Source of the DNA: a virus
Length of the DNA stretch: 36,426 nt
Direction: 5' to 3' (one strand)
Virus record (IMG/VR): IMGVR_UViG_3300031963_000455
Span: 1 to 36,426 of that record
Shown here: positions 10,430 through 36,426 of the stretch, in pieces
Numbering within the stretch: the stretch's first letter is position 1
How the letters are laid out: every line of letters begins with the position of its first letter
The notes under the pieces: generated by a model
Told to the model about the DNA's origin: nothing
What the model saw: the letters and a program-made list of their open reading frames with translations, nothing else
The model's database searches: none
Translations under genes and position numbers: made by a program

Positions 10430-10707
10430 TACGCCATTCCTCCGTTGTCAGGTGCTGCGGGGCCAAAGGGGCCGTTCGCCCAGAAGCCGGTCCAGTCCTT
10501 GAAGTAACCCTTCATGTTGGGGTCTTTGGTGCTGACCCCGAATTCACCAACCATGCCGATGTTGTCTGCGAGCTGCTTACCCGCAAAACGAATCGGTGTG
10601 CCGGCCTCATATCCAAAGGTGACCGGAGCCTCGGCTCGAGTGAGCTTGTTATCCACTCCCTGACCCAAGGCAGTGGCAACATCTTTGCCGTCGTACCTGA
10701 ACGCCAC
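10429..10707 (-). CDS. Hypothetical small virion-arm protein
   Basis: This 92-residue protein begins MAFRYDGKDVATALGQG and ends GPAAPDNGGMA. It is Gly/Asp/Lys-rich, without hydrophobic segments or Cys, and looks like a compact beta or mixed fold. It is encoded after a gap of 36 bases from the upstream 79-residue gene and is coupled to the downstream gene by a TAATG overlap. Not recognised. Confidence 0.72.
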   Translation of the reverse strand: MAFRYDGKDVATALGQGVDNKLTRAEAPVTFGYEAGTPIRFAGKQLADNIGMVGEFGVSTKDPNMKGYFKDWTGFWANGPFGPAAPDNGGMA

Positions 10708-10743
10708 GGGGCAGTCGTCCCAATGCGATTCAGTCTAACGAAG

Positions 10744-10983
10744 CTATTTACTGATCACATTCTTGTAGAAGTTGGCTTTTCGCACCATCTTCTCTGAATG
10801 CTGATCAGGGTTGGCCAGGACTTTCTCGGCGAACTCTTTACGGCCCTCCGGGCTGTCGGCATGTCCAGCCTTGGTAGCCGCAGTTGTAAACGTGCCGCCG
10901 GTTCCACCCTTGCTCGCTGGCTTGCTCATCTTTTGGAAGGCCTGCGCTAATCCGCGGGCCTTCTCTCTTTTCGCGCTGTTCAT
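10744..10983 (-). CDS. Hypothetical small basic protein
   Basis: This 79-residue, lysine-rich protein starts MNSAKREKARGLAQAFQKM and has a Gly/Thr-rich centre and a charged C-terminal helix. It directly follows the 867-residue gene with an ATGA overlap at 10980-10983. No domain recognised. Basic charge could reflect nucleic-acid contact in the virion, but nothing specific shows this. Confidence 0.72.
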   Translation of the reverse strand: MNSAKREKARGLAQAFQKMSKPASKGGTGGTFTTAATKAGHADSPEGRKEFAEKVLANPDQHSEKMVRKANFYKNVISK

Positions 10984-13580
10984 CGACCAGTCATGCGGCC
11001 CAGCCTGCGCTTCAGTAGCTCATCCGCCATCGCAGTCGGTGCGCTCTTAGGGCTGGCGGGCGCGTTCAGCAGGGATTCCTGGACAGTATTAGTCGATGCC
11101 AGTACAGGCGCGGTTGACGCTTTCTCCTCGAGAGCCCGCTGCTTCTGTTGCGCTTCCATGTATTGGGCCACGTCATCGATATAAGAAGCCGTATACCCGC
11201 CTGCGCGGGCGGCTCGATCAGAGCGCCCGAATAGAGCGTCCGCCATGCCGCGTTGCAGCGTATTGAGCTGCAGCTCGCCCTGCCGGGTGCCGCCACCCGC
11301 CCCCTCGGGTGCTTGCTGCGTGAAGAATCGGTTGAACAGTTCTGCCGGCACATATTGCACGACTTGTTCGGGATTGCGCGTGCCAACCTGCGGGGCGCGC
11401 TCTGCCATATACCTAGCCAGATCACGCGTTACGGGGTCTAAGGCGTTGGCCGGGAAGCGCACATCGCCTTCCAGCCCGGGGATAATGGGCTGGCTGGCCC
11501 GCGCTCGACGGGTCGCAGCGCTCACCTGAGGCTTCGGTTCCACTGCGCGAGCTTCCACTCGAGGCTCGCCGCTGCCGACGCCGCGTTTGACCAGATCAGA
11601 GATCGCCTTTTCGTACGTCTGCCGTGCGTTATCAGTAGTGGGACGTGTCCGCCCCCTTAGCTCACTCGCTCGCTGCTTGGCTGCCTCCAGGATGCGGGCC
11701 GCTCCTGCTTGCCCAGTGACTGCTACCAAAGGCTCAGCGGCGGCGGCGGTCAGTACACCGCGACGAACATCTGTGTCAGAGGGAGGCGCACCCGCCAATT
11801 GCTCAAGAACGTCAACGACGCCCAGCAGGGGGTTGGCCGCACTCGTATTGATTGGGAAGCCTGCTTCGCTTAGGAGCCTCCGCTGGTAGTCAGCGACGAC
11901 GGGGTCCGTGCTGCGGAGGTTCATCAGCGACCCCCACTTCGCTTCGCCGGGCATTGGACTTGCAGCGGCGGGGGCGTAGCGATTCCCGGTCGATCGCTCC
12001 TCGATGACACCAGGGTCGCCGTATGCCTGGCCGGGTGCTCCGTACGCTTCCAGTGCAACGGCGTCGATCAAATCGTCCAGCGCGGCATAGAACTCGGGCG
12101 TTCGTTTCTGTCCGCTTCCAATGCGTACGTCAGCAACTCTCGGTTCGCCCGGCTCGGCGGGCTCCTGGAAGTAGTCGGCAATGGGCGCGGGCTTCCCGTC
12201 AGGGCGGCGCTTGGATCCCAGCGCGAAAACTTCGCGCCCTGGCTGGTTGACGAGGACATCGCTGTAACCACGACCGCCGCCAGCGAGCATGTCTTCCGTG
12301 AAGACACCGATCGGGGTCCGATATTTCAGCGAAAGGGCGTTGACAGCTTCCGCGAAGGTCGGGTTGCGGTACGAAGCCCCTGCATCCATGCCGAATGAGG
12401 GGTCGTCCTTCGGGCGCAGGCCGTAGCGTTCTTGCCCAACATCAGGTACCGGGACATTGAGTGACTCCTGGTCGTACCCGCCTGAGACATCCTTCTCGAT
12501 TGGGTTCTGCACGAGGTCCAGACCCAGTCGTGAGACCACTGCATCCGACACCTCGCCGTACGGGTTCACATACAGAACCTGTGCATCCCGCAGCGATGGC
12601 GCAAATTTGTCGCCGTTGTAGTACTGGGCGGCCTGCATCACAGGGCCACTGACATCCGAGTAGGGACCGGCCGCTTTCCCAGAGCTCCAGACCTGCTGGT
12701 TCTTGGGCGCGATCACGAACGGCAGGAGGATGTCGTCCGCCTTGAACTCCATCCCTTGCGACAGGACGCTGCCAGGGGTTCTCAGGACAGCTGCTTCTTC
12801 GTTGCCTCGCTTTTCTTTGCGGAATGAGTTGCGACGACCGCCAACCGTACGGCCAAGACCCAGCGCATTTGCCGCCAAACCGGTCTCTTCTGCGTTGAGT
12901 TGCTCGATTTGGCCCTGAACTCGGGCCAGCAGCGCCAATTTCGCCTTGCTTTCGGGGTCCAGCGCGTCGATTTGGGCTTCGATCGGCAGCGAGGGGTCGA
13001 TCAAACCCTGATTCGCGGCCTTTAGGACGACATCGAGCCCCTGATCACGGCCGATTTCGCCCAATTGAGCGACTTTCGCGCTGAGTTCGGCGGGGATTTG
13101 CCCCTGTACTGCGCCGGATGCCGCTGCCAACCGCACTGCATCGGACAGCTCGAGGGCCTCGCCGCCCGGCATCGTCATGTATTCACGGGCCAGCAGGGCG
13201 GTGTTCCGGTCAACCGGAGCACCCACCGCCTGCGACATGCCGGCAACCAGGCCATCGACGCCTGCATCAAGAAGCTGTTGGCGCGCAATCTCGTCTTGGA
13301 CCGCGATTTGCTGTGCAGCGCGGTCCATCTGAGAACCAGCCCGGGTGCCGCCGCGTCCGTACTCCTTCAGCGAGCCGCTGTCCAGCAGGATGCCGCGAAT
13401 CTCCTCCGGCGAGTAGCGAGCTTCCGGCGGGGGGAGCCCGGGTACATTTTGTGGTTGCGGAGTTGCATCACTATATATACCTAACTTGCGACGTTTTTCG
13501 TATTCCTCTGGCCGAAATTTCCGCAGATATTCCTCTTCGCTGATTTGCCGCGGAGCCATCGCGTAAACCCGTTCACGCAT
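10980..13580 (-). CDS. Large internal virion-type protein, first gene of the left arm
   Basis: From the ATG at 13580 the product has 867 residues. The frame could start four codons earlier at a TTG (13592), but ATG is preferred. It is a largely soluble protein with Ala/Gln-rich helical parts (residues about 60-240), a mixed central region (about 270-560) rich in Asp, Pro and Tyr, and a C-terminal helical region with Arg/Ala clusters. It is the longest protein in the window and the promoter-proximal gene of the minus-strand virion arm. Very long, motif-poor proteins here are often internal or tail-tip virion proteins. No transglycosylase, protease or polymerase motif was seen, and function is unresolved. 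Confidence 0.82.
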   Translation of the reverse strand: MRERVYAMAPRQISEEEYLRKFRPEEYEKRRKLGIYSDATPQPQNVPGLPPPEARYSPEEIRGILLDSGSLKEYGRGGTRAGSQMDRAAQQIAVQDEIARQQLLDAGVDGLVAGMSQAVGAPVDRNTALLAREYMTMPGGEALELSDAVRLAAASGAVQGQIPAELSAKVAQLGEIGRDQGLDVVLKAANQGLIDPSLPIEAQIDALDPESKAKLALLARVQGQIEQLNAEETGLAANALGLGRTVGGRRNSFRKEKRGNEEAAVLRTPGSVLSQGMEFKADDILLPFVIAPKNQQVWSSGKAAGPYSDVSGPVMQAAQYYNGDKFAPSLRDAQVLYVNPYGEVSDAVVSRLGLDLVQNPIEKDVSGGYDQESLNVPVPDVGQERYGLRPKDDPSFGMDAGASYRNPTFAEAVNALSLKYRTPIGVFTEDMLAGGGRGYSDVLVNQPGREVFALGSKRRPDGKPAPIADYFQEPAEPGEPRVADVRIGSGQKRTPEFYAALDDLIDAVALEAYGAPGQAYGDPGVIEERSTGNRYAPAAASPMPGEAKWGSLMNLRSTDPVVADYQRRLLSEAGFPINTSAANPLLGVVDVLEQLAGAPPSDTDVRRGVLTAAAAEPLVAVTGQAGAARILEAAKQRASELRGRTRPTTDNARQTYEKAISDLVKRGVGSGEPRVEARAVEPKPQVSAATRRARASQPIIPGLEGDVRFPANALDPVTRDLARYMAERAPQVGTRNPEQVVQYVPAELFNRFFTQQAPEGAGGGTRQGELQLNTLQRGMADALFGRSDRAARAGGYTASYIDDVAQYMEAQQKQRALEEKASTAPVLASTNTVQESLLNAPASPKSAPTAMADELLKRRLGRMTGR

Positions 13581-13825: not shown

Positions 13826-14363
13826 GACGCCAACGCGCGCAAGGCAGTGGTACAGCAACGGTACACATCAACAATCCACGCGGACACTTTTGCACACAAA
13901 TGCACGCGACGCTGTTGCTTCACCACGCGCAACACTCTTAAGCTTTCACTCGCTACTGCACATCAACGCGCTAGCTATAACCCAGCACGCGTACATAACA
14001 CTGCACGCACACGCGCGTAACTAGGCGGCTCGCATCCGCTCATACCCCCGTTCACTCGTGACGCGGTGGGGCCAAATCCACTGCCCACCGGGGTTCTAGG
14101 GAGCGGGGTGCTCTTTTCGTTTCTCTATTCTATCGCGTCTTGTTGTTGTCTTTTGCTGCGATTGCACGCTTTGTTGTGCATCCAGCACATTGCTACCAAC
14201 GCAAGTCTCCTCTCACTGGAGAGTTGCTTCTGTTGCCCTATTCCGCTCCGCTCTGCTCCCTTCTGCTCTCTTGCGCTCCGGCTCGCTCCGCCCCGGCTGC
14301 GCTGTTAAATCGCGCCAAGGGTACACGCCGTGCGCGTTAAACACTCGGGTTCGTGTTCGTGAA

Positions 14364-14398
14364 CTCTCTCAGCAGTGCATACGCGCTGCCTGACTTCG
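14364..14398 (+). promoter_or_regulatory. R-box 1 (conserved block ending at start codon)
   Basis: This is the first copy of the recurrent block CTCTCTCAGCAGTGCAT followed by ACGCGCTGCCTGACTTCG. It ends at the base before the ATG at 14399. There is no Shine-Dalgarno sequence and no TATAAT-like hexamer inside it. Candidate phage promoter or RNA element. Confidence 0.6.
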
Positions 14399-14569
14399 AT
14401 GACCACCACCACCAAGACCCGCTACTTCGCGGTTGCCATCACCTCCGCCGGTGAATTCATCCCCTTCGGCCCGGGCTTCCCCTCCGAGGACGACGCCTGG
14501 CGCTGGCTGCACTACGACGCAGCGCTCTTCCCCGAGCACAAATCGATCGATGTCTTTCCGATCGCCTGA
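14399..14569 (+). CDS. Small hypothetical protein, first gene of the accessory array
   Basis: The ATG at 14399 gives 56 residues, MTTTTKTRYFAVAITSAGEF onward. I chose it over the upstream in-frame ATG because the conserved R-box ends exactly at 14398, as it does before the next two genes. The product is a compact acidic/aromatic protein (Phe, Pro, Trp, Asp-rich) without Cys or membrane segments. It forms a monocistronic unit, with an R-box before it and a terminator directly after. Function unknown. Confidence 0.75.
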   Translation: MTTTTKTRYFAVAITSAGEFIPFGPGFPSEDDAWRWLHYDAALFPEHKSIDVFPIA

Positions 14570-14575
14570 CCACTT

Positions 14576-14608
14576 GCCCTCACTCGCATCCGCGGGTGGG
14601 GGCTTTTT
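14576..14608 (+). terminator. Rho-independent terminator T1
   Basis: A GC-rich stem (GCCCTCACTCG pairing with CGGGTGGGGGC, two G-U pairs) is followed by TTTTT. It sits seven bases after the stop of the 56-residue gene. Confidence 0.85.
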
Positions 14609-14615
14609 GCGTGAA

Positions 14616-14650
14616 CTCTCTCAGCAGTGCATGCGCGCTGCCTGACTTCG
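14616..14650 (+). promoter_or_regulatory. R-box 2
   Basis: Copy of the conserved block differing from R-box 1 by one base. It starts eight bases after the T run of T1 and ends directly before the ATG at 14651. Confidence 0.65.
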
Positions 14651-14839
14651 ATGCGCAATCCCTTCCTCGCCATCGCCGCCGGTACCTCCATCGGCTTTCT
14701 CCTGGTCGGCGTCTTCCATGCCGGCGTTGCCCGGCTTGATCGCGCCACCCGTGATCAATGCGCCACCCAAGACTGGCCGGCTCACAAGCACGCAGCTCAC
14801 TCCGAGTTCTGCCGCACCTACATGGTCAAGGCTTTCTGA
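14651..14839 (+). CDS. Small single-pass membrane or secreted protein
   Basis: This protein has 62 residues. It starts at the ATG that directly follows R-box 2. Residues about 5-27 are hydrophobic (FLAIAAGTSIGFLLVGVF), a signal anchor or signal peptide. A His/Asp/Cys-bearing tail follows, with two Cys residues (CATQDW and FCRTY) that could form a disulfide if exported. It is monocistronic: terminator T2 follows seven bases after the stop. Function unknown; envelope location is likely. Confidence 0.75.
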   Translation: MRNPFLAIAAGTSIGFLLVGVFHAGVARLDRATRDQCATQDWPAHKHAAHSEFCRTYMVKAF

Positions 14840-14845
14840 TTCCCT

Positions 14846-14880
14846 GCCCTCACTCCGTTTGCTCGGGGTGGGGGCTTTTT
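14846..14880 (+). terminator. Rho-independent terminator T2
   Basis: The stem GCCCTCACTCCG / CGGGGTGGGGGC is followed by TTTTT. Same design as T1. Confidence 0.85.
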
Positions 14881-14887
14881 CATCGCC

Positions 14888-14921
14888 CTCTCTCAGCAGT
14901 GCATGCGCGCTGCTTGCTTCG
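14888..14921 (+). promoter_or_regulatory. R-box 3
   Basis: Conserved block with the 3' part changed to GCTGCTTGCTTCG. It still ends directly before the ATG at 14922. It lies seven bases after T2. Confidence 0.65.
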
Positions 14922-15119
14922 ATGAACACCTACGGCTGGATCGGCTACATCCTTGGCTCGGTCGGCGGACTCGCTCTCGGCTGCCTCCTCTACGGCGGCA
15001 TCGGCTATCTCCTCTTCGGCACAGGCGGGCTCATAGGCGGCTGCGGCGCAGCAGTCGGCTTTGCCCTCTACGGCCTGGGCCACATCAACCCCTTCAGGAC
15101 CCCGGAACTTTTCCGCTAG
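14922..15119 (+). CDS. Small glycine-rich two-helix membrane protein
   Basis: This 65-residue protein has two hydrophobic Gly-rich segments (about residues 6-30 and 33-55, including GGLIGGCGAAVGFALYGLG) and a short polar C-terminal tail. Size and topology resemble small holins or glycine-zipper membrane proteins, but it is not near the endolysin and no family is recognised. The ATG directly after R-box 3 fixes the start. Terminator T3 follows, so it forms its own transcription unit. Confidence 0.75.
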   Translation: MNTYGWIGYILGSVGGLALGCLLYGGIGYLLFGTGGLIGGCGAAVGFALYGLGHINPFRTPELFR

Positions 15120-15142
15120 CACCCCTCCAAATTCCGCCTCCT

Positions 15143-15176
15143 GCCCTCGCTCGTTTTCACGGGTGGGGGCTTTTTT
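15143..15176 (+). terminator. Rho-independent terminator T3
   Basis: The stem GCCCTCGCTCG / CGGGTGGGGGC has a TTTTCA loop and is followed by TTTTTT. Confidence 0.85.
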
Positions 15177-15182
15177 ATTGCC

Positions 15183-15214
15183 CTCTTTCAGCAGTGCATC
15201 CGCGCTGACTGACT
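15183..15214 (+). promoter_or_regulatory. R-box 4
   Basis: Conserved block (CTCTTTCAGCAGTGCATCCGCGCTGACTGACTG). Unlike copies 1-3 it is separated from its start codon by a structured leader of about 45 bases. Confidence 0.6.
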
Positions 15215-15220
15215 GACGGC

Positions 15221-15258
15221 ATGTGGTTCTTTCGCCCCGGGGCACCCGGGTTACCACC
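15221..15258 (+). promoter_or_regulatory. Structured leader A (GGTTCTTTCGC box plus CCCGGG hairpin)
   Basis: The leader has a GTGGTTCTTTCGC block, then a hairpin CCCGGG-GCA-CCCGGG (15236-15250), then ACCACC directly before the ATG at 15259. The leader of the 168-residue gene downstream has the same order with a different sixth base pair. Confidence 0.55.
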
Positions 15259-15531
15259 ATGACGGAAGGCAAGCTCTACCGTCTCAGCCAGCAACTCCGC
15301 CTCCTGGCACGCGCTGGCGTCACCCTCACCGAGGACGGCCGCAAGCTGCACGGCGAGATCTCTCAGGAGATCGAAGTCGCGCGCGCTCACCTCGAGGCCA
15401 TGATCGATCAGGTCATGGACGGCCACCCCCTCGGCGATCTCCAGCGCCGGCACATCGCCTGGTGCCAGCAGATTGCTGAGCTCAACCGCCCAGCAATACA
15501 TCAGCTCGAGCTGGAGGTTTGCCCCTTCTGA
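15259..15531 (+). CDS. Small helical hypothetical protein
   Basis: This 90-residue protein begins MTEGKLYRLSQQLRLLARAG. It is mostly amphipathic helix with many Leu, Gln, His and Glu, and a single Cys near the end (VCPF). The ATG at 15259 is preferred to upstream in-frame codons because the shared leader ends here. It is monocistronic between R-box 4 and T4. No domain recognised; a helical oligomer or nucleic-acid-associated protein is possible but unproven. Confidence 0.75.
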   Translation: MTEGKLYRLSQQLRLLARAGVTLTEDGRKLHGEISQEIEVARAHLEAMIDQVMDGHPLGDLQRRHIAWCQQIAELNRPAIHQLELEVCPF

Positions 15532-15550
15532 GCTCGAGCGCGCTTCACTT

Positions 15551-15584
15551 GCCCTCACTCGCTGTTGCGGGTGGGGGCTTTTTT
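15551..15584 (+). terminator. Rho-independent terminator T4
   Basis: The stem GCCCTCACTCGC / GCGGGTGGGGGC is followed by TTTTTT. Confidence 0.85.
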
Positions 15585-15589
15585 ATTGC

Positions 15590-15624
15590 CTCTCTTCAGC
15601 AGTGCATTGGCGCTGCCTGATTCG
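15590..15624 (+). promoter_or_regulatory. R-box 5
   Basis: Conserved block CTCTCTTCAGCAGTGCATTGGCGCTGCCTGATTCG, six bases after T4, followed by a structured leader. Confidence 0.6.
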
Positions 15625-15628
15625 AGGC

Positions 15629-15664
15629 GTGGTTCTTTCGCCCCGGCACCGCCGGGAACACCAC
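15629..15664 (+). promoter_or_regulatory. Structured leader B (GGTTCTTTCGC box plus CCCGGC/GCCGGG hairpin)
   Basis: The same GTGGTTCTTTCGC block as leader A is followed by a hairpin CCCGGC-ACC-GCCGGG (15642-15656) and AACACCAC before the ATG at 15665. The innermost pair is C-G here and G-C in leader A, so pairing is kept while sequence differs. Confidence 0.55.
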
Positions 15665-16171
15665 ATGGCTACCGCCACCAAGGCCGACCTCGAAGCTCGC
15701 ATCTCCGAGCTCGAAACCCAACTCGCTGCCTCCAGCGGAGATCCCAAAGCGGCTGGCATGGTCCGACTCGTCGGCATGCTCAAAGCCGTGAAGGACATCT
15801 CCCGTCCGGACGGCGGCAAGCTCACGGTCTCGGCCATCCTCACCAACTCCACTCGCGACAACCGCGGTGGCAAGGAGGTGAACGTCGATCTGCCCATCGA
15901 CTCGATCATCGCCACCGACAACGGTGTGCCCATCGCCAGCGAGATCCTCTCGATTGCGAACAACACCGAATGGGCCAGGGTCGCCATCAGCGGCTACTGG
16001 ACCGTCTACGGCGAGATCACCCGCAACGACCGCGGCTACCCCGTCGCCTACCGCAGACAACTCCGCGCTCAGCGCATCGAGGTCCTCAACTCGGCCCCCG
16101 TCGGGCCTGAGTTCGCCCAACCCGAGGCACCCTTCTCGGCTGAACCCACCGGCGAGGAAGTTCCCTTCTGA
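15665..16171 (+). CDS. Candidate single-stranded DNA-binding protein (SSB-like tail)
   Basis: This 168-residue protein has an N-terminal helix with Glu/Leu heptads (residues about 6-24). A beta-rich core of about 100 residues follows (about 45-145), with alternating strands such as KLTVSAILT and WARVAISGYWTVYGEI, compatible with an OB fold. An acidic, Pro-rich C-terminal tail ends TGEEVPF. Bacterial SSB proteins end in an acidic tail with a terminal Pro-Phe (DDDIPF type) that recruits repair and replication enzymes, so this ending is suggestive. Length also fits. The beta core is not clearly homologous by eye, so the call is an inference. Own R-box, leader and terminator. Confidence 0.5.
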   Translation: MATATKADLEARISELETQLAASSGDPKAAGMVRLVGMLKAVKDISRPDGGKLTVSAILTNSTRDNRGGKEVNVDLPIDSIIATDNGVPIASEILSIANNTEWARVAISGYWTVYGEITRNDRGYPVAYRRQLRAQRIEVLNSAPVGPEFAQPEAPFSAEPTGEEVPF

Positions 16172-16194
16172 GCTCGGACGCTTCAGCCCCTCTC

Positions 16195-16229
16195 GCCCCA
16201 CTCGCCTTTGCGGGTGGGGCTTTTCTTTT
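16195..16229 (+). terminator. Rho-independent terminator T5
   Basis: The stem GCCCCACTCGC / GCGGGTGGGGC is followed by TTTTCTTTT. Located 23 bases after the SSB-like gene. Confidence 0.85.
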
Positions 16230-16249
16230 GCGCAACACGCTCATCTGTC

Positions 16250-16423
16250 ATGACCCTCCAGATCACGCTCACCCCAGCAGAAGCCATCGCCCTGCGCGAC
16301 GCTCTTGCGCTCTCCAGCAGGGCAGCGGACTACGACTTCACCCTGGATCCACTCTGGAGCCAGGTCGGTGATTACATCTATGACCAATGCCAGCAGGGGC
16401 TCCTGCCTGGCGACGTCTTCTAA
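16250..16423 (+). CDS. Small hypothetical protein
   Basis: This 57-residue protein begins MTLQITLTPAEAIALRDALA. It is acidic, with one beta strand followed by a helix and a Tyr/Asp/Trp-rich end. It begins 20 bases after terminator T5 without an R-box, so either an unrecognised promoter or readthrough serves it. Terminator T6 follows. No family recognised. Confidence 0.7.
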   Translation: MTLQITLTPAEAIALRDALALSSRAADYDFTLDPLWSQVGDYIYDQCQQGLLPGDVF

Positions 16424-16438
16424 GTACCTAACCATTTA

Positions 16439-16468
16439 CCTCGCTCGGTCTCCCGTGCGGGGTTTTTT
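16439..16468 (+). terminator. Rho-independent terminator T6
   Basis: The stem CCTCGC / GCGGGG has an inner loop and is followed by TTTTTT. It is weaker than T1-T5 but correctly placed. Confidence 0.7.
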
Positions 16469-16474
16469 AGTGCG

Positions 16475-24560: not shown

Positions 24561-24806
24561 ATGATCCAGACCCCGATGAACCTCCAGCAAATCACCGCTG
24601 CCGTTGATGCCGGCCGCACCGTCCACTGGCAGAACGGCAGCTACATCGTTCGCAAAGGGCCCAGCCATCCCGACAATCCTGGCAATGGCTGTAACCCCGC
24701 CCTGCGCTACACCATCGACCACGCCGGCGGGAGCTCCATCGGCCTCACCTGGCGCGATGGCGTCACCCTCAACGGCAAGGAGTGCGACTTCTACGCGCTC
24801 GACTAG
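24561..24806 (+). CDS. Conserved-type small protein (VHW...GLTW..GVTLNG..DFY)
   Basis: This 81-residue protein carries GRTVHWQNGSYIV, then IGLTWRDGVTLNGKECDFY near the end. From memory, small uncharacterised phage and plasmid proteins share this ending of Gly-Leu-Thr-Trp, Asp-Gly, Leu-Asn-Gly, Asp-Phe-(Phe/Tyr). The fold is probably beta. Its stop overlaps the stop end of the convergent Dps-like gene by four bases. Function unknown. Confidence 0.76.
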   Translation: MIQTPMNLQQITAAVDAGRTVHWQNGSYIVRKGPSHPDNPGNGCNPALRYTIDHAGGSSIGLTWRDGVTLNGKECDFYALD

Positions 24807-25288
24807 CAGCCACGCAGGATGCTCTTCAGCATCCAGCTGGTCTTGAAGGCTGAGCCCACCAGCTCAGCCATCGTGTTCTGCACATCGGGCGCTCCCACCG
24901 CAGCGGCTACCTGCTCAATCTCCTTGGCCAGGTAGCCCATGCTTTCGATGTTCACGTAGTACGCCAGCAACATCGAGCGACCGTCGTAGTTCTCGACGTT
25001 CTGGAACGGCGGCATGGCTTCCTTCAGGCCACACGCACACATCGGCATGAAGTGATCCAGGCTTCTGACCTCCTCAGCCACGGTGTCGAACTGCTTGAGA
25101 TGTTCCTTATAGCGCTCCTTCAGGAACGCATGCACCTCAAGGAAGTTCGCACCTTCATAGTTCAGGTGGATTAAGTGGCTCTGCGTTTGCAGCTCCTTCA
25201 GCAGTGAGGCCAGCATTACTAAATGCTTGACCAGCTGAGCTACGCCACCGTCGTCGCACGTATCCATCTCGCCCTGAGGGACCTCCAT
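24803..25288 (-). CDS. Dps-like ferritin (iron storage / DNA protection) on minus strand
   Basis: The ATG at 25288 gives 161 residues, the usual Dps size; a longer open frame reaches 25390. Residues HLNYEGANFLEVH give H41 and H53. D68 (KQFDTV) and E72 (AEE) follow, so spacings 12, 15 and 4 match the four ferroxidase ligands of Dps (His-His-Asp-Glu, as in E. coli H51, H63, D78, E82). Dps forms dodecamers that oxidise iron with peroxide and shield DNA. The family Trp after the first His is replaced by Leu. Extra Cys (MCACG and a terminal RGC) are unusual. It is alone on the minus strand between plus-strand operons. No Lys-rich DNA-binding tail is seen. Confidence 0.82.
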   Translation of the reverse strand: MEVPQGEMDTCDDGGVAQLVKHLVMLASLLKELQTQSHLIHLNYEGANFLEVHAFLKERYKEHLKQFDTVAEEVRSLDHFMPMCACGLKEAMPPFQNVENYDGRSMLLAYYVNIESMGYLAKEIEQVAAAVGAPDVQNTMAELVGSAFKTSWMLKSILRGC

Positions 25289-25346: not shown

Positions 25347-25380
25347 CGCCCCTGCCTGATCCTCAGGTGGGGGCATTTTT
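25347..25380 (+). terminator. Terminator T9
   Basis: The stem GCCCCTGCCTGA / TCAGGTGGGGGC is followed by ATTTTT. On the plus strand it would stop transcription running antisense to the Dps-like gene before the next R-box. Confidence 0.8.
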
Positions 25381-25383
25381 GTG

Positions 25384-25420
25384 CACTCATTCAGCGGTGC
25401 ATTGCAGTTACCTGACTTCG
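25384..25420 (+). promoter_or_regulatory. R-box 9 (diverged middle)
   Basis: CACTCATTCAGCGGTGCATTGCAGTTACCTGACTTCG keeps the CAGCNGTGCAT core and CTGACTTCG end. It stops one base before the ATG at 25422. Confidence 0.6.
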
Positions 25421-25421
25421 T

Positions 25422-26039
25422 ATGAGTTCTCTTGCCCCAACTGAAGATGCCTTCTTGCTTGATGACTGCGACGATCCCGTTGCCGCCGCAATCACCAAGC
25501 GCCCGCCCGAGCCGAAGTTCTTTCGCTTCGGGATCAACCAGGTCGGCCAGCTCTATGAGTACGGCGAGTCACACGCCCAACCCAAGCGCGTCCTCGATGG
25601 CACCGGCGATGGCCTGACCTTCCTCGGTGTCCATGACATCCGCGCCTGTGAGCGCGCTGGCGACCGCCGCAAGCTCTACCTCGACGTCACCATCGGCTCG
25701 CCTCACCCCTACCACCTGTTCGTGCTGTCGCTGCCGGTCTTCAACTCCAATCCGGACCGCAGCTCCTGGCCAGTACGCACCCTGCTGGGCTCGCTTGCTG
25801 TGGCTGACAGAATGCTTGACATGCGTGCCATGGCAGGCACAATCTGTGCGCGGCGGGGCACCAAGCCCAACGCCTACGGCCATGTCGCCAACTTCATCGA
25901 CCTGTTCGTTCACAGCGACCCAGCCGGTGAGGCCCAGGCCCGTATTGCCTCAGATGCCATTGATCCTGATCGCCACACCCTGGAGGTCACGGTTGATCGC
26001 CTGCGTCGCTCCCTCGACCTTGAGCCCCAGTTCCAGTGA
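25422..26039 (+). CDS. Hypothetical protein, first gene of the DUF932 operon
   Basis: This 205-residue protein has an acidic N-terminus (LLDDCDDP). A beta-rich centre follows (YLDVTIGSPHPYHLFVLSLP), then a helical and acidic C-terminal region. The ATG is one base after R-box 9. The downstream gene starts with a GTG overlapping this stop (GTGA), and a DUF932 gene follows, so the three probably act together. It is not recognised as a known family. Compositional features suggest a soluble protein. Confidence 0.78.
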   Translation: MSSLAPTEDAFLLDDCDDPVAAAITKRPPEPKFFRFGINQVGQLYEYGESHAQPKRVLDGTGDGLTFLGVHDIRACERAGDRRKLYLDVTIGSPHPYHLFVLSLPVFNSNPDRSSWPVRTLLGSLAVADRMLDMRAMAGTICARRGTKPNAYGHVANFIDLFVHSDPAGEAQARIASDAIDPDRHTLEVTVDRLRRSLDLEPQFQ

Positions 26040-30909: not shown

Positions 30910-31089
30910 ATGAGCCCTGACGATCTCACCGTCGATTACTACATCGACTGCCATGGCCATGACTGCTATCGGATCTGCATGCCCGATGGCCTCTGCTCCA
31001 TTGTGTCTTCTGCTCATCTCATCGACGAGCGGAAGGCACAACTTCTCCGCATGTACCCGCAGTGCCGCCCGTCATCGTCTTTGGCTTGA
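30910..31089 (+). CDS. Small hypothetical protein
   Basis: This 59-residue protein starts MSPDDLTVDYYIDCHGHDCY. It is acidic and Tyr/His/Cys-rich near the N-terminus (DCHGHDC could coordinate a metal), with a basic C-terminal helix. It begins 33 bases after the previous stop and overlaps the next small membrane gene. No family recognised. Confidence 0.65.
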   Translation: MSPDDLTVDYYIDCHGHDCYRICMPDGLCSIVSSAHLIDERKAQLLRMYPQCRPSSSLA

Positions 31090-31142
31090 CCTGGATGCTC
31101 GGCATCCTCGCCGTCACCATCTACCTCACGCAATTGTCATGA
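31062..31142 (+). CDS. 26-residue membrane peptide (GTG start)
   Basis: A GTG at 31062 opens a 26-codon frame: short N-terminus, then FGLTWMLGILAVTIYLTQL, one membrane segment. It overlaps both the previous gene and the next one (ATGA at 31139), a strong sign of coupled translation. Too short for homology judgement. Confidence 0.5.
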   Translation: MPPVIVFGLTWMLGILAVTIYLTQLS

Positions 31143-31276
31143 AGCATTCAGCGCTTCTGGCCCTTGTACTTGGCATCGCCCTTGGGGCCTTGCTGCGCTG
31201 GGCACTGTCACCCATCAATCCGGCTCCACAAAATCCCGATTACATGGCCACGCCTGTTATCTGGACAAGCGATTAG
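31139..31276 (+). CDS. 45-residue signal-anchor protein
   Basis: The frame starts MKHSALLALVLGIALGALLR, an N-terminal hydrophobic helix with a Lys start, followed by a Pro/Asn/Asp tail. It looks like a small inner-membrane or exported peptide. It directly follows the 26-residue membrane peptide. Last gene of the GC-rich part. Confidence 0.6.
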   Translation: MKHSALLALVLGIALGALLRWALSPINPAPQNPDYMATPVIWTSD

Positions 31277-31297
31277 ATCTACACACTTCTCTTTCCC

Positions 31298-31540
31298 GTG
31301 ACTGAAATCAAACCGCCACTTGGGCTTGTCGAGGAGCTCGGCAATGCTTACAAAGACTACCAGATTGAAATTAAAGAACTTATTGCGTTGGCATACCTCT
31401 CGGGATACAACGACTGCGCAAACTCTCAATACCGCAAACTGTGCAGTGGCTTGCTCCAGGCTATTGACCTAGGTAATCCGGAGGCCGAGGAGCTTGCCCT
31501 CTGCCAGATCAGGACCGCCTTAAAGCTTGAAGCCCAGTAG
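31298..31540 (+). CDS. Small hypothetical protein in the A/T-rich segment (GTG start)
   Basis: This 80-residue protein begins at a GTG (MTEIKPPLGLVEELGNAYKD). It has a Leu/Glu/Ala-rich helical fold with four Cys or Tyr-rich turns (SGYNDCANSQYRKLC). It starts the region where base composition becomes A/T-richer. No family recognised. Confidence 0.68.
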   Translation: MTEIKPPLGLVEELGNAYKDYQIEIKELIALAYLSGYNDCANSQYRKLCSGLLQAIDLGNPEAEELALCQIRTALKLEAQ

Positions 31541-31554
31541 TCCGATCAACTCCG

Positions 31555-31752
31555 ATGTCTGAGTTTCCATTTATCTACGTCTGCAGCCACGCGGGGAAGA
31601 TTGGCAACTTCCGCTGGGTCAATTCAGACACCCGCTGGCCAGACTGGATTCACAAGCGTTGGATTGGCTCAGCAATGCGGAGGGGTTACTGGGGCCGTTG
31701 CGGCTTGGTCAACCCTCCGGAATTCCCAGATAGTTCATCGTTGCTCCCTTAG
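31555..31752 (+). CDS. Small Trp-rich hypothetical protein
   Basis: This 65-residue protein starts MSEFPFIYVCSHAGKIGNFR and is unusually rich in Trp and Arg (six Trp, including RWPDWIHKRWIG). Compact basic protein; no domain recognised. Starts 14 bases after the previous gene. Confidence 0.65.
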   Translation: MSEFPFIYVCSHAGKIGNFRWVNSDTRWPDWIHKRWIGSAMRRGYWGRCGLVNPPEFPDSSSLLP

Positions 31753-31772
31753 TCAGACCCTCTTCTGTCCTT

Positions 31773-31970
31773 ATGGCTGACTACACAGTGCTTGACACTA
31801 GTTACGAGTTCTCGGTGCTCGACGACAACGGCGAAGAACAAGCGGGCGGCACAGCCCCCACCCTGGAGCAAGCCTGGAATGAAGGCCAACATTACTTGGC
31901 CATTTACTCTGAAGATGGTCCGCACTTGCTGGAAGTACGGCGTGTTGAACGCATCTCTCTACTATCTTAG
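31773..31970 (+). CDS. Small hypothetical protein
   Basis: This 65-residue acidic, beta-like protein starts MADYTVLDTSYEFSVLDDNG, with a helix TLEQAWNEGQHYLAI and a final strand. Not recognised. Confidence 0.65.
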   Translation: MADYTVLDTSYEFSVLDDNGEEQAGGTAPTLEQAWNEGQHYLAIYSEDGPHLLEVRRVERISLLS

Positions 31971-31981
31971 TTTAATCAATT

Positions 31982-32134
31982 ATGGTTCACCGCTACTCCG
32001 TCGCCGCCGCTCTTCGCGCTGCTGTAGAGCAGATAGAGGATATTTACTATAAATCCGACACAGACCGCAGTGATGGTGTTGTTTTTGCACTACTTCAAAT
32101 GATGCTTATTGTTAATGAACTTGAAGCTCAATAG
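31982..32134 (+). CDS. Small helical protein
   Basis: This 50-residue protein starts MVHRYSVAAALRAAVEQIED and is helical with an acidic C-terminus, ending VNELEAQ. It starts 11 bases after the previous stop. It is followed by a 156-base region carrying a long palindrome and a hairpin. Confidence 0.62.
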   Translation: MVHRYSVAAALRAAVEQIEDIYYKSDTDRSDGVVFALLQMMLIVNELEAQ

Positions 32135-32147
32135 TCAAACTCACTAA

Positions 32148-32175
32148 ACCATTTTGTTAACGTCAACAAAATGGT
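32148..32175. promoter_or_regulatory. 28-bp near-perfect palindrome
   Basis: ACCATTTTGTTAACGTCAAC continues AAAATGGT. The sequence equals its reverse complement except at two positions (one mismatched pair). Lack of a T run makes a terminator unlikely. It is operator-like or an RNA hairpin upstream of the next gene. Confidence 0.6.
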
Positions 32176-32202
32176 GCTTCTGTTACACTCAGTATCGATA
32201 GA

Positions 32203-32247
32203 GCCTGAGTCTCTGCTCCGTCCTTATGAGGCGGTTTACACTCAGGC
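32203..32247 (+). ncRNA. Structured leader RNA candidate before the 81-residue gene
   Basis: GCCTGAGT (32203-32210) pairs with ACTCAGGC (32240-32247). Inside the loop, CCG-t-CCT (32218-32224) pairs with AGG-CGG around TATG. The nested stem structure lies 44 bases before the ATG at 32291. There is no terminal T run. It could be a leader RNA element. Confidence 0.4.
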
Positions 32248-32290
32248 CATCAACAATCTCAATACTCACCGTTTATAAAGAACTCAACTA

Positions 32291-32536
32291 ATGGCAAAAG
32301 GACTATCAGCTGACGCATATGCGGTAATCAAAAAAGCTCATGAAGTTGATTGGTGTAATAAAAAAGCTATAGCTGCTGTTCTCCGGGAAGTAGCGTATAG
32401 GTTGAGCTTTGGCCACGCCACAGGTGACGGAATCATCTGCGAAGACGATCTGCGAGCCTTGGCTAATGAACTTGATGCTTACGAAGAGCTAACTGGTGTA
32501 ACACCAGTAAACAAAGCTACTGAGGAAGATACCTAA
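32291..32536 (+). CDS. Small hypothetical protein
   Basis: This 81-residue acidic/basic helical protein starts MAKGLSADAYAVIKKAHEVD and contains Cys near residues 22 and 50. It ends with an acidic EEDT. It begins after a 156-base leader with palindrome and hairpin. Its last 20 bases overlap the 3' end of ThyX, which converges on it. Function unknown. Confidence 0.68.
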   Translation: MAKGLSADAYAVIKKAHEVDWCNKKAIAAVLREVAYRLSFGHATGDGIICEDDLRALANELDAYEELTGVTPVNKATEEDT

Positions 32537-33215
32537 GGAAATCCCAACCCTTAAGAGATGGATCTTCGGAAGCTCTAACTGCTTTCACGACAGTAGGAAG
32601 CTCACGGGCAAGGCGATAACCAATCGACCTAGCAATCTGGCGATGCTCAGCCTGAGTATCATCCTTGCCGCGTAAACCAACATAATGCAGGAAACTACGC
32701 ACAGTGCCGCTCATATGCATACGAGTGGGTGTGTACAAGGGTAAAATATTCCTTGCGCATTCACGAGCCACGCCTGCGTCGAGCATTTCCTTATACAGCC
32801 CTTGAACCTGACTGTCGATAAACTCAAGCCGCTCCCAGAACGATTCACACATGTAAACCGGAAGGCGGTCCACGCTGCTCTGACGATTCTTTGAGGCTTG
32901 AAACCTCAGCTCAAATTGAAAGGGTTTCTCTTCTAAATCAAGTGTTTCGTTAGGTTCGCAGTAGCGCTGAGACAGTTCTTGAAATACGAAGCTCCTGTGC
33001 CTCAAGATTTGAGGTGAAATAGCTCGAGTTGTACTAATTTCAAAGCTGGCCGAAGCTTGCTCGAAAACCGACCAGTGTGCGTGTTTAATACAGTACGTTA
33101 ATAGCTTTTCGTACTCTTCACGATCAGGATCTTTTGTGGAAACTCTGGCGTGTCTTGCGATTACTTTTTCCGCATCTGGTGTAACCCAATCCAGATCAGC
33201 GGAATGCAGCTTCAT
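32517..33215 (-). CDS. thyX: Flavin-dependent thymidylate synthase ThyX
   Basis: The 232-residue length is typical of ThyX. The signature RHRSFVFQELSQRY (residues 72-85) is the ThyX motif RHR-x7-S, with the FAD/dUMP-binding Arg-His-Arg and Ser82. Upstream, the HWSVFEQ block (47-53) is also family-typical. Downstream ARNILPLYTPTR and RSFLHYVGLR agree with the C-terminal dUMP-binding part. ThyX makes dTMP from dUMP with methylene-tetrahydrofolate and FADH2. Phages carry it to supply thymidine for their DNA. The ATG overlaps the stop of an upstream small gene (TAATG), so it is translationally coupled. Confidence 0.97.
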   Translation of the reverse strand: MKLHSADLDWVTPDAEKVIARHARVSTKDPDREEYEKLLTYCIKHAHWSVFEQASASFEISTTRAISPQILRHRSFVFQELSQRYCEPNETLDLEEKPFQFELRFQASKNRQSSVDRLPVYMCESFWERLEFIDSQVQGLYKEMLDAGVARECARNILPLYTPTRMHMSGTVRSFLHYVGLRGKDDTQAEHRQIARSIGYRLARELPTVVKAVRASEDPSLKGWDFLRYLPQ

Positions 33216-33355
33216 TAGCTACGTGGAAAAGCTTGTTGGTACCGTAATCTAGCAGTAATCTCGCTCGGGTTTGAAACCATTCGAGCGAGGTCAGCAGGTC
33301 CCCAACCGAGACGCATCCCAGCCATGCGAACCTTATCAGCGTCCTGGTGCATCAT
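33215..33355 (-). CDS. Small protein coupled to ThyX
   Basis: A 46-residue frame starts at 33355 (two Met, MMHQDADKVRMAGMRLGWGP) and ends at a TAA overlapping the ThyX ATG. It is a Met/Arg/Leu-rich helical peptide. Its start overlaps the stop of the upstream 171-residue gene (ATGA), so the three genes are translationally linked. Not recognised. Confidence 0.65.
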   Translation of the reverse strand: MMHQDADKVRMAGMRLGWGPADLARMVSNPSEITARLRYQQAFPRS

Positions 33356-33867
33356 TTTTTAATTTTAATAGGAAGCTGAAGGGGTAAAGTTCCCGCCGTG
33401 TTGAGATTCTGGGGGATCATCGCCATTGTCGGATCCATGGCACTCAGAAAGTTCTGCTGAGGAACCGTCGTCAGAATCTTTAACTTATTACGCATCTCAG
33501 GATTAAGAGTGTTCTGAGTTTTAACCAGATACTCACCCTTACTCATATCAGCAGGTCGCTCCGGGATCACTAGGTTATCCCTATGGTTGTACCCGGCAGG
33601 CCCTGTCAACTGCTGGCTAGGAACAATATTACTAGCTTGAACATCCGTAGGTCCCACGGGCTCTCGCGCATACTCTCCAATATCGTGCTGATACTGTGAA
33701 TACACTCGATTGATGTTGTCTAAACCGGTTGCCCGATTCAACTCAATCATCTCAGGAGTGTTCTGGTACATCGCGGGGTTGCCCGTAGCCAGGCTACCGA
33801 GTGGTTTCACTCGGGCAGCCATAGGGCCTAAGCCACCGGGGCGTTGTAAGAAGTTTTGGCCGTTCAT
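33352..33867 (-). CDS. Hypothetical protein
   Basis: This 171-residue, Pro/Asn/Gln/Thr-rich protein starts MNGQNFLQRPGGLGPMAARV and ends with a hydrophobic-basic tail (LPLQLPIKIKK). There are few charged helices and no Cys or membrane segment. It could be a structural or tail-associated protein. It is the third gene upstream of ThyX. Function unknown. Confidence 0.75.
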   Translation of the reverse strand: MNGQNFLQRPGGLGPMAARVKPLGSLATGNPAMYQNTPEMIELNRATGLDNINRVYSQYQHDIGEYAREPVGPTDVQASNIVPSQQLTGPAGYNHRDNLVIPERPADMSKGEYLVKTQNTLNPEMRNKLKILTTVPQQNFLSAMDPTMAMIPQNLNTAGTLPLQLPIKIKK

Positions 33868-33881
33868 AGTTTTATCTTAGC

Positions 33882-34115
33882 TCAATCAGGTTTCCTAGAT
33901 CTATTTCTCGAGGCATCCATTACCCTTAAGTTAGAAGGCGAATTGTTATGCGGGTTCCGATCTTTATGGTCGACATCTTTACCATCGCCTTTATGGACCC
34001 GACCTTCGCGTTCCATAAAACGCCGCGCTTTATTTCTAGCTGCACGGCGCTTTTTAACTTTCTCAGTGCCGTCGTAATTACGGTACTCTTCCTTATAGTC
34101 TCGCTTATACGCCAT
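33882..34115 (-). CDS. HNH-like small basic protein
   Basis: This 77-residue, very basic protein has repeated Lys/Arg and the block GDGKDVDHKDRNPHNNSPSN followed by LRVM and NRSR. The Asp-His-Lys-Asp-x-Asn-x-x-Asn-Asn...Asn-Leu-x-x-(Leu/Met) order is the core of HNH nucleases (first His and the Asn and late basic residue), so it may be a small HNH endonuclease or a capsid-associated relative. The usual zinc Cys pairs are absent. It lies between two other minus genes. Confidence 0.65.
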   Translation of the reverse strand: MAYKRDYKEEYRNYDGTEKVKKRRAARNKARRFMEREGRVHKGDGKDVDHKDRNPHNNSPSNLRVMDASRNRSRKPD

Positions 34116-34130
34116 CAGCTGATTAAGTTT

Positions 34131-34370
34131 TTACAATTCTAAGCCAGCACGAAACAACTCAGCTACTGCCATGCCCCGCATGGTAACTAAATGCCGAGCA
34201 AATTCAGTCAGATCCGACTGAAAACGCTGGAAAAGCCCAGAGTACAGACCGTTATTACATCCATAAAACTCATAGAGCGCATCTAAGAAATCTGCCTTGC
34301 TTTGCTCATCAGTAACACTCCAGTTATCTAGAATTTTCTGATAATCGAACTCAGCGCCGACAGAAACCAT
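34131..34370 (-). CDS. Small hypothetical protein
   Basis: This 79-residue acidic/helical protein starts MVSVGAEFDYQKILDNWSVT. It has a Tyr/Phe/Leu-rich centre (FYGCNNGLYSGLFQRF) and a final Met/Arg/Ala-rich helix. The start is 29 bases downstream of the endolysin stop. No domain recognised. Confidence 0.68.
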   Translation of the reverse strand: MVSVGAEFDYQKILDNWSVTDEQSKADFLDALYEFYGCNNGLYSGLFQRFQSDLTEFARHLVTMRGMAVAELFRAGLEL

Positions 34371-34399
34371 GGCTCAAAGGAGAGAGTACGAAGTCTACC

Positions 34400-35635
34400 T
34401 CAGCTAGCCAGGATTACCCAGCCACTCTTAGGTCCTTCAACAAGGAAACGAGGGCCTAAGTTTTTCTTGGAATACAAGCGGTATTTCCCATCAGTAGAAA
34501 CGTAAGACCCACCAATCAGATCAAGATCGCCGAAAGGATCATGCACCCAAAGTTTCTGGCGGTCTGCGGTGACGCCCACACAGCAGATCCAGTGGCCGCC
34601 TCCAACAGGATTGGAAACTGGACCTTTGTGGAGGATGCCCATTGGGACAGGGATGCCTCGCTTGAGCTGCTGCTCGATGGTATCCCAGCTTGCGTTTTGA
34701 ACAAACTTAGCGTCGACACCAAAGTGCTTCAGAGTGTCCAGTTGAGCTGAAGCCGATGTGGTATCACCGTACTTATATACTTCACTGATGTATTCATCGT
34801 CAGTATCAATAGCATCAGGATCGAGAGCCGCCAGGAGCATTGCACAACTGCTGGAAAAGCAGGTGCGCATAGGATCTTTTTTGTTATCCCGTTGGGAGAA
34901 GTAAGGAACAACTAGTTTGATCTCACCGTCTGTCTTGGGTGGTGTCTCCTGAGTCTCTGTGTCATTAATGATCTTCCAGTGATCCGGGAAAAACCACCAC
35001 TCAACTTCTGGTTGCTTCTCTAGGAGCACTCGCTGGTGAGCTTCTCCGGCATACATCCTGATTTCAGTCCACTGCCACGCGCTGCCTTTAGGGACAAAAA
35101 GCTTCTCCTCGGCCTTCAAGGTGCTGGAGTCAACAGGGTGACGCTTGAGCCAAGTATCACGTTTCGCAAGGAGAGACTTAGCCAAAAGAGGATGCTTCAC
35201 CTTCTCTAAGAATAACTTTTTCTCCTCTTCTCGGCGCCGTACCAAACCAGGGATGACTTCATCGCTGCCGGCCTTAACCCACCTACCGAATTCACCCGCT
35301 ACGACCTTGCGATCAGCTCCATGGTTAAGCAGGCGCAGCATCGTGCTGTTGACGAACGCTGTCGGTCCAACATTAAACGTAAAAGAAACTAGCGCATCAT
35401 ATTCATTCTGATTAAGTTTTACGCTTACAAAACTACTGACGGTCTGTTGCGCACTCTCAGTATCAGCCCACAGCAGACGCTCGGCCTCCTCCTCGGTGAT
35501 GCGCATTCCTGGTTGCACATCAGGCCCAGTATGCCCATAGCCGATAGTCAATACACCGGCAGGACAGACATAGGCTGTCAGCCGAATACCTTCAAACTTT
35601 TTGATTAAATCTATCCCCTTCTGCGAAATACGCAT
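34400..35635 (-). CDS. Endolysin: GH24 lysozyme + SH3b-like linker + C39-like peptidase
   Basis: This 411-residue protein has three visible parts. Residues 1-145 are a GH24 lysozyme: KKFEGIRLTAYVCPAGVLT gives E15, C24, T30, fitting the E-8aa-(D/C)-5aa-T catalytic pattern; IGYGHT and SFTFNVG follow. Residues about 155-225 contain a beta-rich VPKGSAW and WWFFPDHW segment, SH3b-like and possibly wall-binding. Residues about 240-411 look like a C39-type cysteine peptidase: TCFSSSCAMLL (C259), GGHWICCVG (H348), VHDPFGD (D366). It would cleave glycan strands and peptide stems. No signal peptide is seen, so a holin or other release route is needed. A 15-base inverted repeat abuts its start codon. 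Confidence 0.88.
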   Translation of the reverse strand: MRISQKGIDLIKKFEGIRLTAYVCPAGVLTIGYGHTGPDVQPGMRITEEEAERLLWADTESAQQTVSSFVSVKLNQNEYDALVSFTFNVGPTAFVNSTMLRLLNHGADRKVVAGEFGRWVKAGSDEVIPGLVRRREEEKKLFLEKVKHPLLAKSLLAKRDTWLKRHPVDSSTLKAEEKLFVPKGSAWQWTEIRMYAGEAHQRVLLEKQPEVEWWFFPDHWKIINDTETQETPPKTDGEIKLVVPYFSQRDNKKDPMRTCFSSSCAMLLAALDPDAIDTDDEYISEVYKYGDTTSASAQLDTLKHFGVDAKFVQNASWDTIEQQLKRGIPVPMGILHKGPVSNPVGGGHWICCVGVTADRQKLWVHDPFGDLDLIGGSYVSTDGKYRLYSKKNLGPRFLVEGPKSGWVILAS

Positions 35636-35677
35636 TTGTCAAAATCTGCCTGTATTTACTCTGGCAGAGTTTGACAA
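35636..35677. promoter_or_regulatory. Large inverted repeat abutting the endolysin start
   Basis: TTGTCAAAATCTGCC (35636-35650) and GGCAGAGTTTGACAA (35663-35677) pair with one mismatch around a 12-base loop. On the minus strand the hairpin ends directly at the endolysin ATG. No T run follows it. It could be an operator or a translation-controlling hairpin. Confidence 0.6.
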
Positions 35678-35697
35678 TATGCGGCGTGAAATTTTAA

Positions 35698-36096
35698 TTA
35701 AGCAGCGGTAACTGTAACCCGGTACTCAGTTTCACTGCGACCGGTACGGAACACATAGAGCGTAGCGGTCTCGCCGTTGCTGACGCTATAAGTGAAACTG
35801 GAGTTGCTGCGACGCGTAATTTTGGGTGCGTTTGCAGTACCTGCCACGGTACCATCGGCTTTATAAACTTCAACTTTGCTCACAGCAAAAGCTTCAGCAT
35901 CTAAAGTGATGGTCGCGGTACCAGAGGTACCAAAGGTCAGGCTGAAAACGTCGGCCAGACCTAAGCCGCCGTCACCAGCAAAAGAGCGGTAGTTACCAAT
36001 GGTGACGTTATTACCGTCCAGAGTACGAAACTGGCCAAAACGAGTAATTCCTTCCGGAGCGACTCCTGTCTCACGATTGAAGGTAACTTCGGCCAT
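35698..36096 (-). CDS. Beta-rich hypothetical protein, possible virion surface or fibre-associated
   Basis: This 132-residue protein is rich in Thr, Gly, Ser, Ala and Val with alternating strand patterns, for example FSLTFGTSGTATITLD and SNSSFTYSVSNGETATLYVF. It looks like a small immunoglobulin-like or decoration-type beta domain. It starts MAEVTFNRETGVAPEGITRF and is the first gene of this minus-strand group. Function is inferred weakly from composition. Confidence 0.72.
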   Translation of the reverse strand: MAEVTFNRETGVAPEGITRFGQFRTLDGNNVTIGNYRSFAGDGGLGLADVFSLTFGTSGTATITLDAEAFAVSKVEVYKADGTVAGTANAPKITRRSNSSFTYSVSNGETATLYVFRTGRSETEYRVTVTAA

Positions 36097-36135
36097 GGCT
36101 AGATTGGAGACACCTCGATATAAAGATTCTAAGGT

Positions 36136-36426
36136 ATGTACAACAAAGTAAACGCACTTATCTACGAGCTGATTACCTTCTTATGTAGGTTTTATCCACT
36201 AAAACAAAAACCTTGGATCAGGCGAATACTCGATTATTGTCGACCAGATTGGGCTGCTTTTCGAGCTGAAGTTGCAATTAAAGAAGTTGACAAACAAGTA
36301 GAGGCGTTCCGCGAGGCGTGGGATAAAGAGGAAAAAGAAAAACAGAAACCTATCTACACTGAACTTCCGCCAGACGGAACTAAAGCGCAGGAGCTCCTAG
36401 GTGGCGAGATGCGCCTCAGCGCCCCA
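36136..36426 (+). CDS. Hypothetical protein cut by right edge
   Basis: An open frame of 97 codons runs from the ATG at 36136 to the window edge with no stop, so the C-terminus is missing. The start MYNKVNALIYELITFLCRFY has a mildly hydrophobic, Cys-bearing helix, then a long charged region rich in Lys, Glu and Arg. It diverges from the beta-rich gene, with 39 bases between them. Not recognised. Confidence 0.65.
   Translation, partial: MYNKVNALIYELITFLCRFYPLKQKPWIRRILDYCRPDWAAFRAEVAIKEVDKQVEAFREAWDKEEKEKQKPIYTELPPDGTKAQELLGGEMRLSAP

Follow-up and report, generated by a model that had tools for sequence, protein, structure and literature searches.

A Dps-type mini-ferritin in a phage of the S-EIV1 lineage, probably a soluble iron and peroxide sink

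A 36.4-kb IMG/VR virus record (IMGVR_UViG_3300031963_000455, positions 1 to 36,426; here called the window, meaning the whole stretch of DNA that was analysed) encodes on its minus strand a protein that we read as a Dps-type mini-ferritin of an S-EIV1-lineage phage, one that probably infects picocyanobacteria. In our preferred reading, to which we assign a probability of roughly 0.7, the protein would form a 12-mer cage and act as a soluble sink for iron and peroxide without coating DNA; the cage, the ferroxidase activity and the physiological role are those expected from the family.

The gene and its product

The dps gene (24803-25288, minus strand) specifies 161 residues followed by a stop codon; translation would start at Met1, with an alternative Met8 at 25265-25267, and the frame contains no internal stops. 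The ligand spacing given in the preliminary description, H-12-H-15-D-4-E, is present in the translation (H41-12-H53-15-D68-4-E72), as are an MCACG motif at residues 83-87 and a cysteine, C161, at the C-terminus. In a comparison of the window with its relative L040, 43 of the 67 substitutions in the dps frame fall at codon position 3, an excess which indicates that the frame is under purifying selection. As had been described, the gene is a single-gene minus-strand island, with plus-strand genes on both sides, and the layout is the same in L040, L041 and L042. No sigma-70-type promoter was found near dps.

The protein matches the Pfam Ferritin family PF00210 (E = 2.7e-9; 37.5 bits against a curated cut-off of 24.5), so that a ferritin-like domain can be assigned, and it also matches PHROG 3636 (E = 5.7e-21). 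An AlphaFold2 monomer model, for which the input alignment comprised 19 phage homologues, has a pLDDT of 86.8, with low confidence at the N-terminus, and places helices at residues 13-43, 49-76, 85-91 (BC), 103-131 and 134-160. The predicted fold is thus a four-helix bundle with a short BC-loop helix and no fifth helix, which is the Dps layout. Foldseek comparison with the PDB gave Dps-family proteins as the best 50 matches (query-normalised TM 0.76-0.86, 14-23% identity), and PDB sequence searches with the protein were consistent with these structure matches. Structure prediction and comparison with Dps had been suggested as a check on the identification, and its outcome supports it; Pfam Ferritin, PHROG 3636, the predicted fold and the Foldseek matches all agree with the earlier proposal of a Dps-like ferritin. 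We conclude, from the sequence and the model, that the ORF is real and encodes a predicted Dps-type mini-ferritin.

The same fold is found in Vibrio cholerae Dps (3iq1) and Bacillus subtilis MrgA (2chp), with TM values of 0.82-0.86, and the ferroxidase spacing of the window copy is shared with these two proteins as well as with Helicobacter pylori NAP (1ji4) and Campylobacter Dps (3kwo). Cellular Dps proteins are, however, about 18-23% identical to the window copy in the structure matches, and the residue that follows the first ligand His is Trp in them whereas it is Leu in the window copy.

The carrier phage and the distribution of dps

The gene is phage-encoded, as had been stated: a terminase, an endolysin, a ThyX thymidylate synthase and an S-EIV1-like structural protein share the window with it. 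The terminase shares 51% identity with its counterpart in Synechococcus phage S-EIV1, and for the 740-residue structural protein S-EIV1 was the sole match among 50,697 phage records, with 50% identity. Because both the terminase and this lineage-specific structural protein match, we take the window to be part of an S-EIV1-lineage phage. Its host is likely, by kinship, to be cyanobacterial (picocyanobacterial); the host on record, Synechococcus, is that of the isolate S-EIV1 only. In the final 5 kb of the window (31001-36426), where ThyX lies along with an endolysin that carries an additional C39-like peptidase domain, the G+C content is down to 46-53%, from about 60%.

The search for related phage copies that the preliminary description had called for yielded a homologue in S-EIV1 itself and at least 206 IMG/VR stretches that encode relatives of the dps protein. 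The S-EIV1 protein, AHV82153 (KJ410740), is annotated as a 'DNA-binding ferritin-like protein' and is 47% identical to the window copy over 89% of the length; it has the same four ligands, and its phage belongs to the same lineage by terminase and structural protein. Unlike the window copy, it carries a Lys-rich N-terminal tail, its gene lies on the strand opposite to the structural protein gene, and a second gene follows on its own strand.

Dps is a core gene of the S-EIV1 lineage. When lineage records were chosen by the structural protein, independently of Dps, all 12 records of at least 72 kb had a Dps, as did five of 15 shorter ones (30-67 kb), the rest of which may lack it as fragments. 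Conversely, the structural protein is present in all 24 of the Dps-bearing records examined (72-95 kb).

Where might the gene have come from? An origin from the DpsA of a cyanobacterial host was considered and set aside: the protein scores 18.8 bits against the cyanobacterial DpsA model NF052461 (an NCBIfam equivalog), far under the cut-off of 300. The best plasmid-borne matches are 26-28% identical. No confirmed relative emerged from two scans of 84,980 genomes by sequence pattern, of a kind that detects close relatives only.

A phage Dps as such is not new: the S-EIV1 copy was already annotated, phage Dps proteins have been published from Lactobacillus phages (PMC6669764) and gut Bacteroides phages (PMC8008677), and the BFVD library contains many of them. 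The Dps fold is shared with proteins encoded by the Lactobacillus phages Semele and LP65, the gut 'Gratiaviridae', Bacillus phage G (Gp346) and Escherichia phage SU10, but these other Dps proteins belong to separate phage lineages, and the named BFVD entries are 14-18% identical to the window copy. It is the lineage-specific details that are worth testing.

The ferroxidase centre

The four putative ligands, all encoded on the minus strand, are His41 (25166-25168), His53 (25130-25132), Asp68 (25085-25087) and Glu72 (25073-25075), corresponding to His51, His63, Asp78 and Glu82 of E. coli Dps. Among 70 distinct phage sequences (two of them distant, one from a faecal phage contig and the other from a Bacteroides phage), no more than ten positions apart from Met1 are invariant. 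The four ligands belong to these ten; if invariant columns fell at random, the chance of this would be roughly 8e-6. Five further lineage members also have all four ligands, which makes 75 of 75 homologues.

Are the ferroxidase ligands then 'complete', as had been claimed? E. coli Dps has a high-affinity site formed by His51, His63 and Glu82 and a second one formed by Lys48, Asp67 and Asp78 (PMC6150300, PMC9140674). The window copy has the first site intact and retains the equivalent of Asp78; at the position of Lys48 it has His38 (25175-25177, minus strand), which is invariant in all homologues. The position of Asp67, however, is occupied by Lys57 (25118-25120, minus strand), whereas Glu is found there in V. 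cholerae Dps, NAP and Campylobacter Dps. The acid is lost across the whole lineage: each of the 73 members has Lys, Gly, Arg or Gln here. This sets the window copy apart from the canonical ferroxidase-centre subclass, in which Asp or Glu at position 67 belongs to the second iron site (PMC6675082). Nor does it fall in the His-type subclass of Nostoc punctiforme Dps4 (5hjf), with which it shares the fold and the missing acid at 67: Dps4 uses His78 and His164 (PMC6675082), whereas the window copy has the invariant Asp68 at position 78, and Lys rather than Asn at 67. Since Dps4 also lacks the acid and yet binds two irons (PMC6675082), the loss weakens 'complete' but not 'ferroxidase'. The earlier claim thus stands for the equivalents of His51, His63, Asp78 and Glu82 and fails at residue 67, the acidic one. 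With Lys57 replacing the second-site acid, ferroxidase kinetics may differ.

The cysteines had been singled out as abnormal for Dps, namely the Cys84-Ala-Cys86 cluster in the BC loop (25031-25039, minus strand) and the C-terminal Cys161 (24806-24808, minus strand). Cys84 is indeed unusual and is kept in 73 of 73 lineage members; the other two are variable, with Cys at position 86 in 34 of 73 and at the C-terminus in seven of 73. In Campylobacter Dps, too, a Cys aligns with Cys84, which makes this residue unusual rather than unprecedented. Together with the lineage-wide loss of the acid at 67, the invariance of Cys84 would fit a protein that has kept the Dps fold but not the ferroxidase function and that has another role, structural or regulatory, through this cysteine. 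We consider such a protein most improbable, given that the four main ligands are without exception retained and rank among its most conserved residues.

The N-terminus and DNA binding

E. coli Dps binds DNA through N-terminal tails that bear Lys and Arg (PMC6150300). The window copy is not of this type: its N-terminal 15 residues (25244-25288, minus strand), predicted to be disordered to residue 12, include five acids but neither Lys nor Arg. The S-EIV1 clade (62 tree rows, support 100/100) is alone in having a Lys-rich tail, with the pattern PKAPxKSK; the window's clade is without it.

The window does have an in-frame, Arg-rich extension upstream, as do its two closest relatives, and a 195-residue version of the protein, with this extension from the ATG at 25390 as a DNA-binding tail, was considered. 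Between the window and L040 the extension has 10, 3 and 8 substitutions by codon position, and 11 nonsynonymous versus 5 synonymous codons. Since its substitutions are not biased towards codon position 3 and a hairpin cassette (see below) overlaps it, the extension is probably not translated, and we rejected the longer version.

The annotation of the S-EIV1 copy as 'DNA-binding' invites the view that the protein is a Dps that coats phage DNA and so protects it directly. The conserved Lys-rich tail of the sister-clade copies is in keeping with this view, and PHROG 3636 carries the label DNA binding protein. For the window copy we find it decidedly improbable: with the Lys-rich tail missing, the N-terminus acidic and the Arg-rich extension under no coding selection and probably untranslated, direct DNA binding appears unlikely. 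The protection of DNA from oxidative damage suggested in the preliminary description is accordingly not upheld for this copy insofar as it would depend on direct binding.

Genomic context

The context of dps differs between the clades. The gene and the structural protein gene share a strand in the window's clade, as they do in the other tail-less members that were checked, whereas in the S-EIV1 clade they lie on opposite strands. Moreover, dps in the S-EIV1 clade usually comes directly after a virion structural gene of PHROG 1645 (58 of the 62 loci where both were found), a linkage that is absent in the window's clade. Late expression of dps alongside the virion genes was considered; the adjoining virion gene in the tailed clade is consistent with it, but which strand dps occupies with respect to the other structural protein varies by clade.

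The same linkage bears on whether the mini-ferritin might serve mainly for iron storage or supply (to phage iron proteins, virions or the next host) rather than for peroxide removal. The same cage and ferroxidase chemistry would do for this purpose, and the adjacency of dps to a virion gene in the sister clade would make sense; but a partner gene for iron uptake or release was not seen, and the window's clade has no such adjacency. We therefore consider storage or supply unlikely as the main function.

In S-EIV1 the gene directly after dps, AHV82152 (L037:20441-21907), is annotated as a sulfate adenylyltransferase. Because it has no family match in Pfam or PHROG, this annotation is doubtful, and we drew no functional conclusion from it. 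In the relative L046 the neighbour of dps (10435-11274, minus strand) is a gene for a 2OG-Fe(II) oxygenase (Pfam, E = 1.2e-15).

The gap between dps and the divergent plus-strand gene at 25422 contains a terminator-like hairpin followed by a leader (25348-25421, plus strand), related to a cassette that is repeated at 14.3-16.5 kb. This intergenic cassette (14358-16470, plus strand) comprises a terminator-like hairpin with a T run and then the leader motif TTCAGCAGTGCAT..CTGACTTCGATG, which runs into a start codon. Four copies of 82 nt are found at 14575, 14847, 15142 and 15550, with partial ones at 14358, 16196 and 16439, and it is a diverged copy that precedes the gene at 25422. The repeated cassette looks like a unit of terminator plus promoter or leader.

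Proposed role

We propose that the dps product assembles, like other Dps proteins, into a cage of 12 subunits. Ferroxidase sites would lie at the two-fold interfaces, each made of His41 and His53 of one subunit and Asp68 and Glu72 of its partner. The cage would oxidise Fe(II), preferably with H2O2 (or with O2), and store the ferric product. Fenton reactants would in this way be removed from the infected photosynthetic cell, so that phage DNA would be protected and the host would stay productive until lysis. Removal of iron and peroxide during infection is, in our analysis, the likeliest role. The copy of the window's clade would act as a soluble sink that leaves DNA uncoated; the Lys-tailed copies of the sister clade could bind DNA too.

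It is tempting to go further and propose that the lineage has a ferroxidase-centre variant of its own, with a second iron site of His38 and Asp68, Lys57 where the acid would be, and Cys84, which is invariant, as a redox-active or metal-binding residue in the BC loop; Dps would also have diverged within the lineage into a Lys-tailed form that binds DNA and a tail-less form that does not. As a whole this proposal is tentative, and we think it rather unlikely to be right.

That a mini-ferritin is present in each of the near-complete genomes checked from this large aquatic lineage suggests that control of iron and peroxide is a routine need of these phages and not the result of an occasional pick-up of a host gene. 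Because the copies divide cleanly into Lys-tailed and tail-less ones, they offer a natural way to ask whether phages need ferroxidase activity, DNA binding or both.
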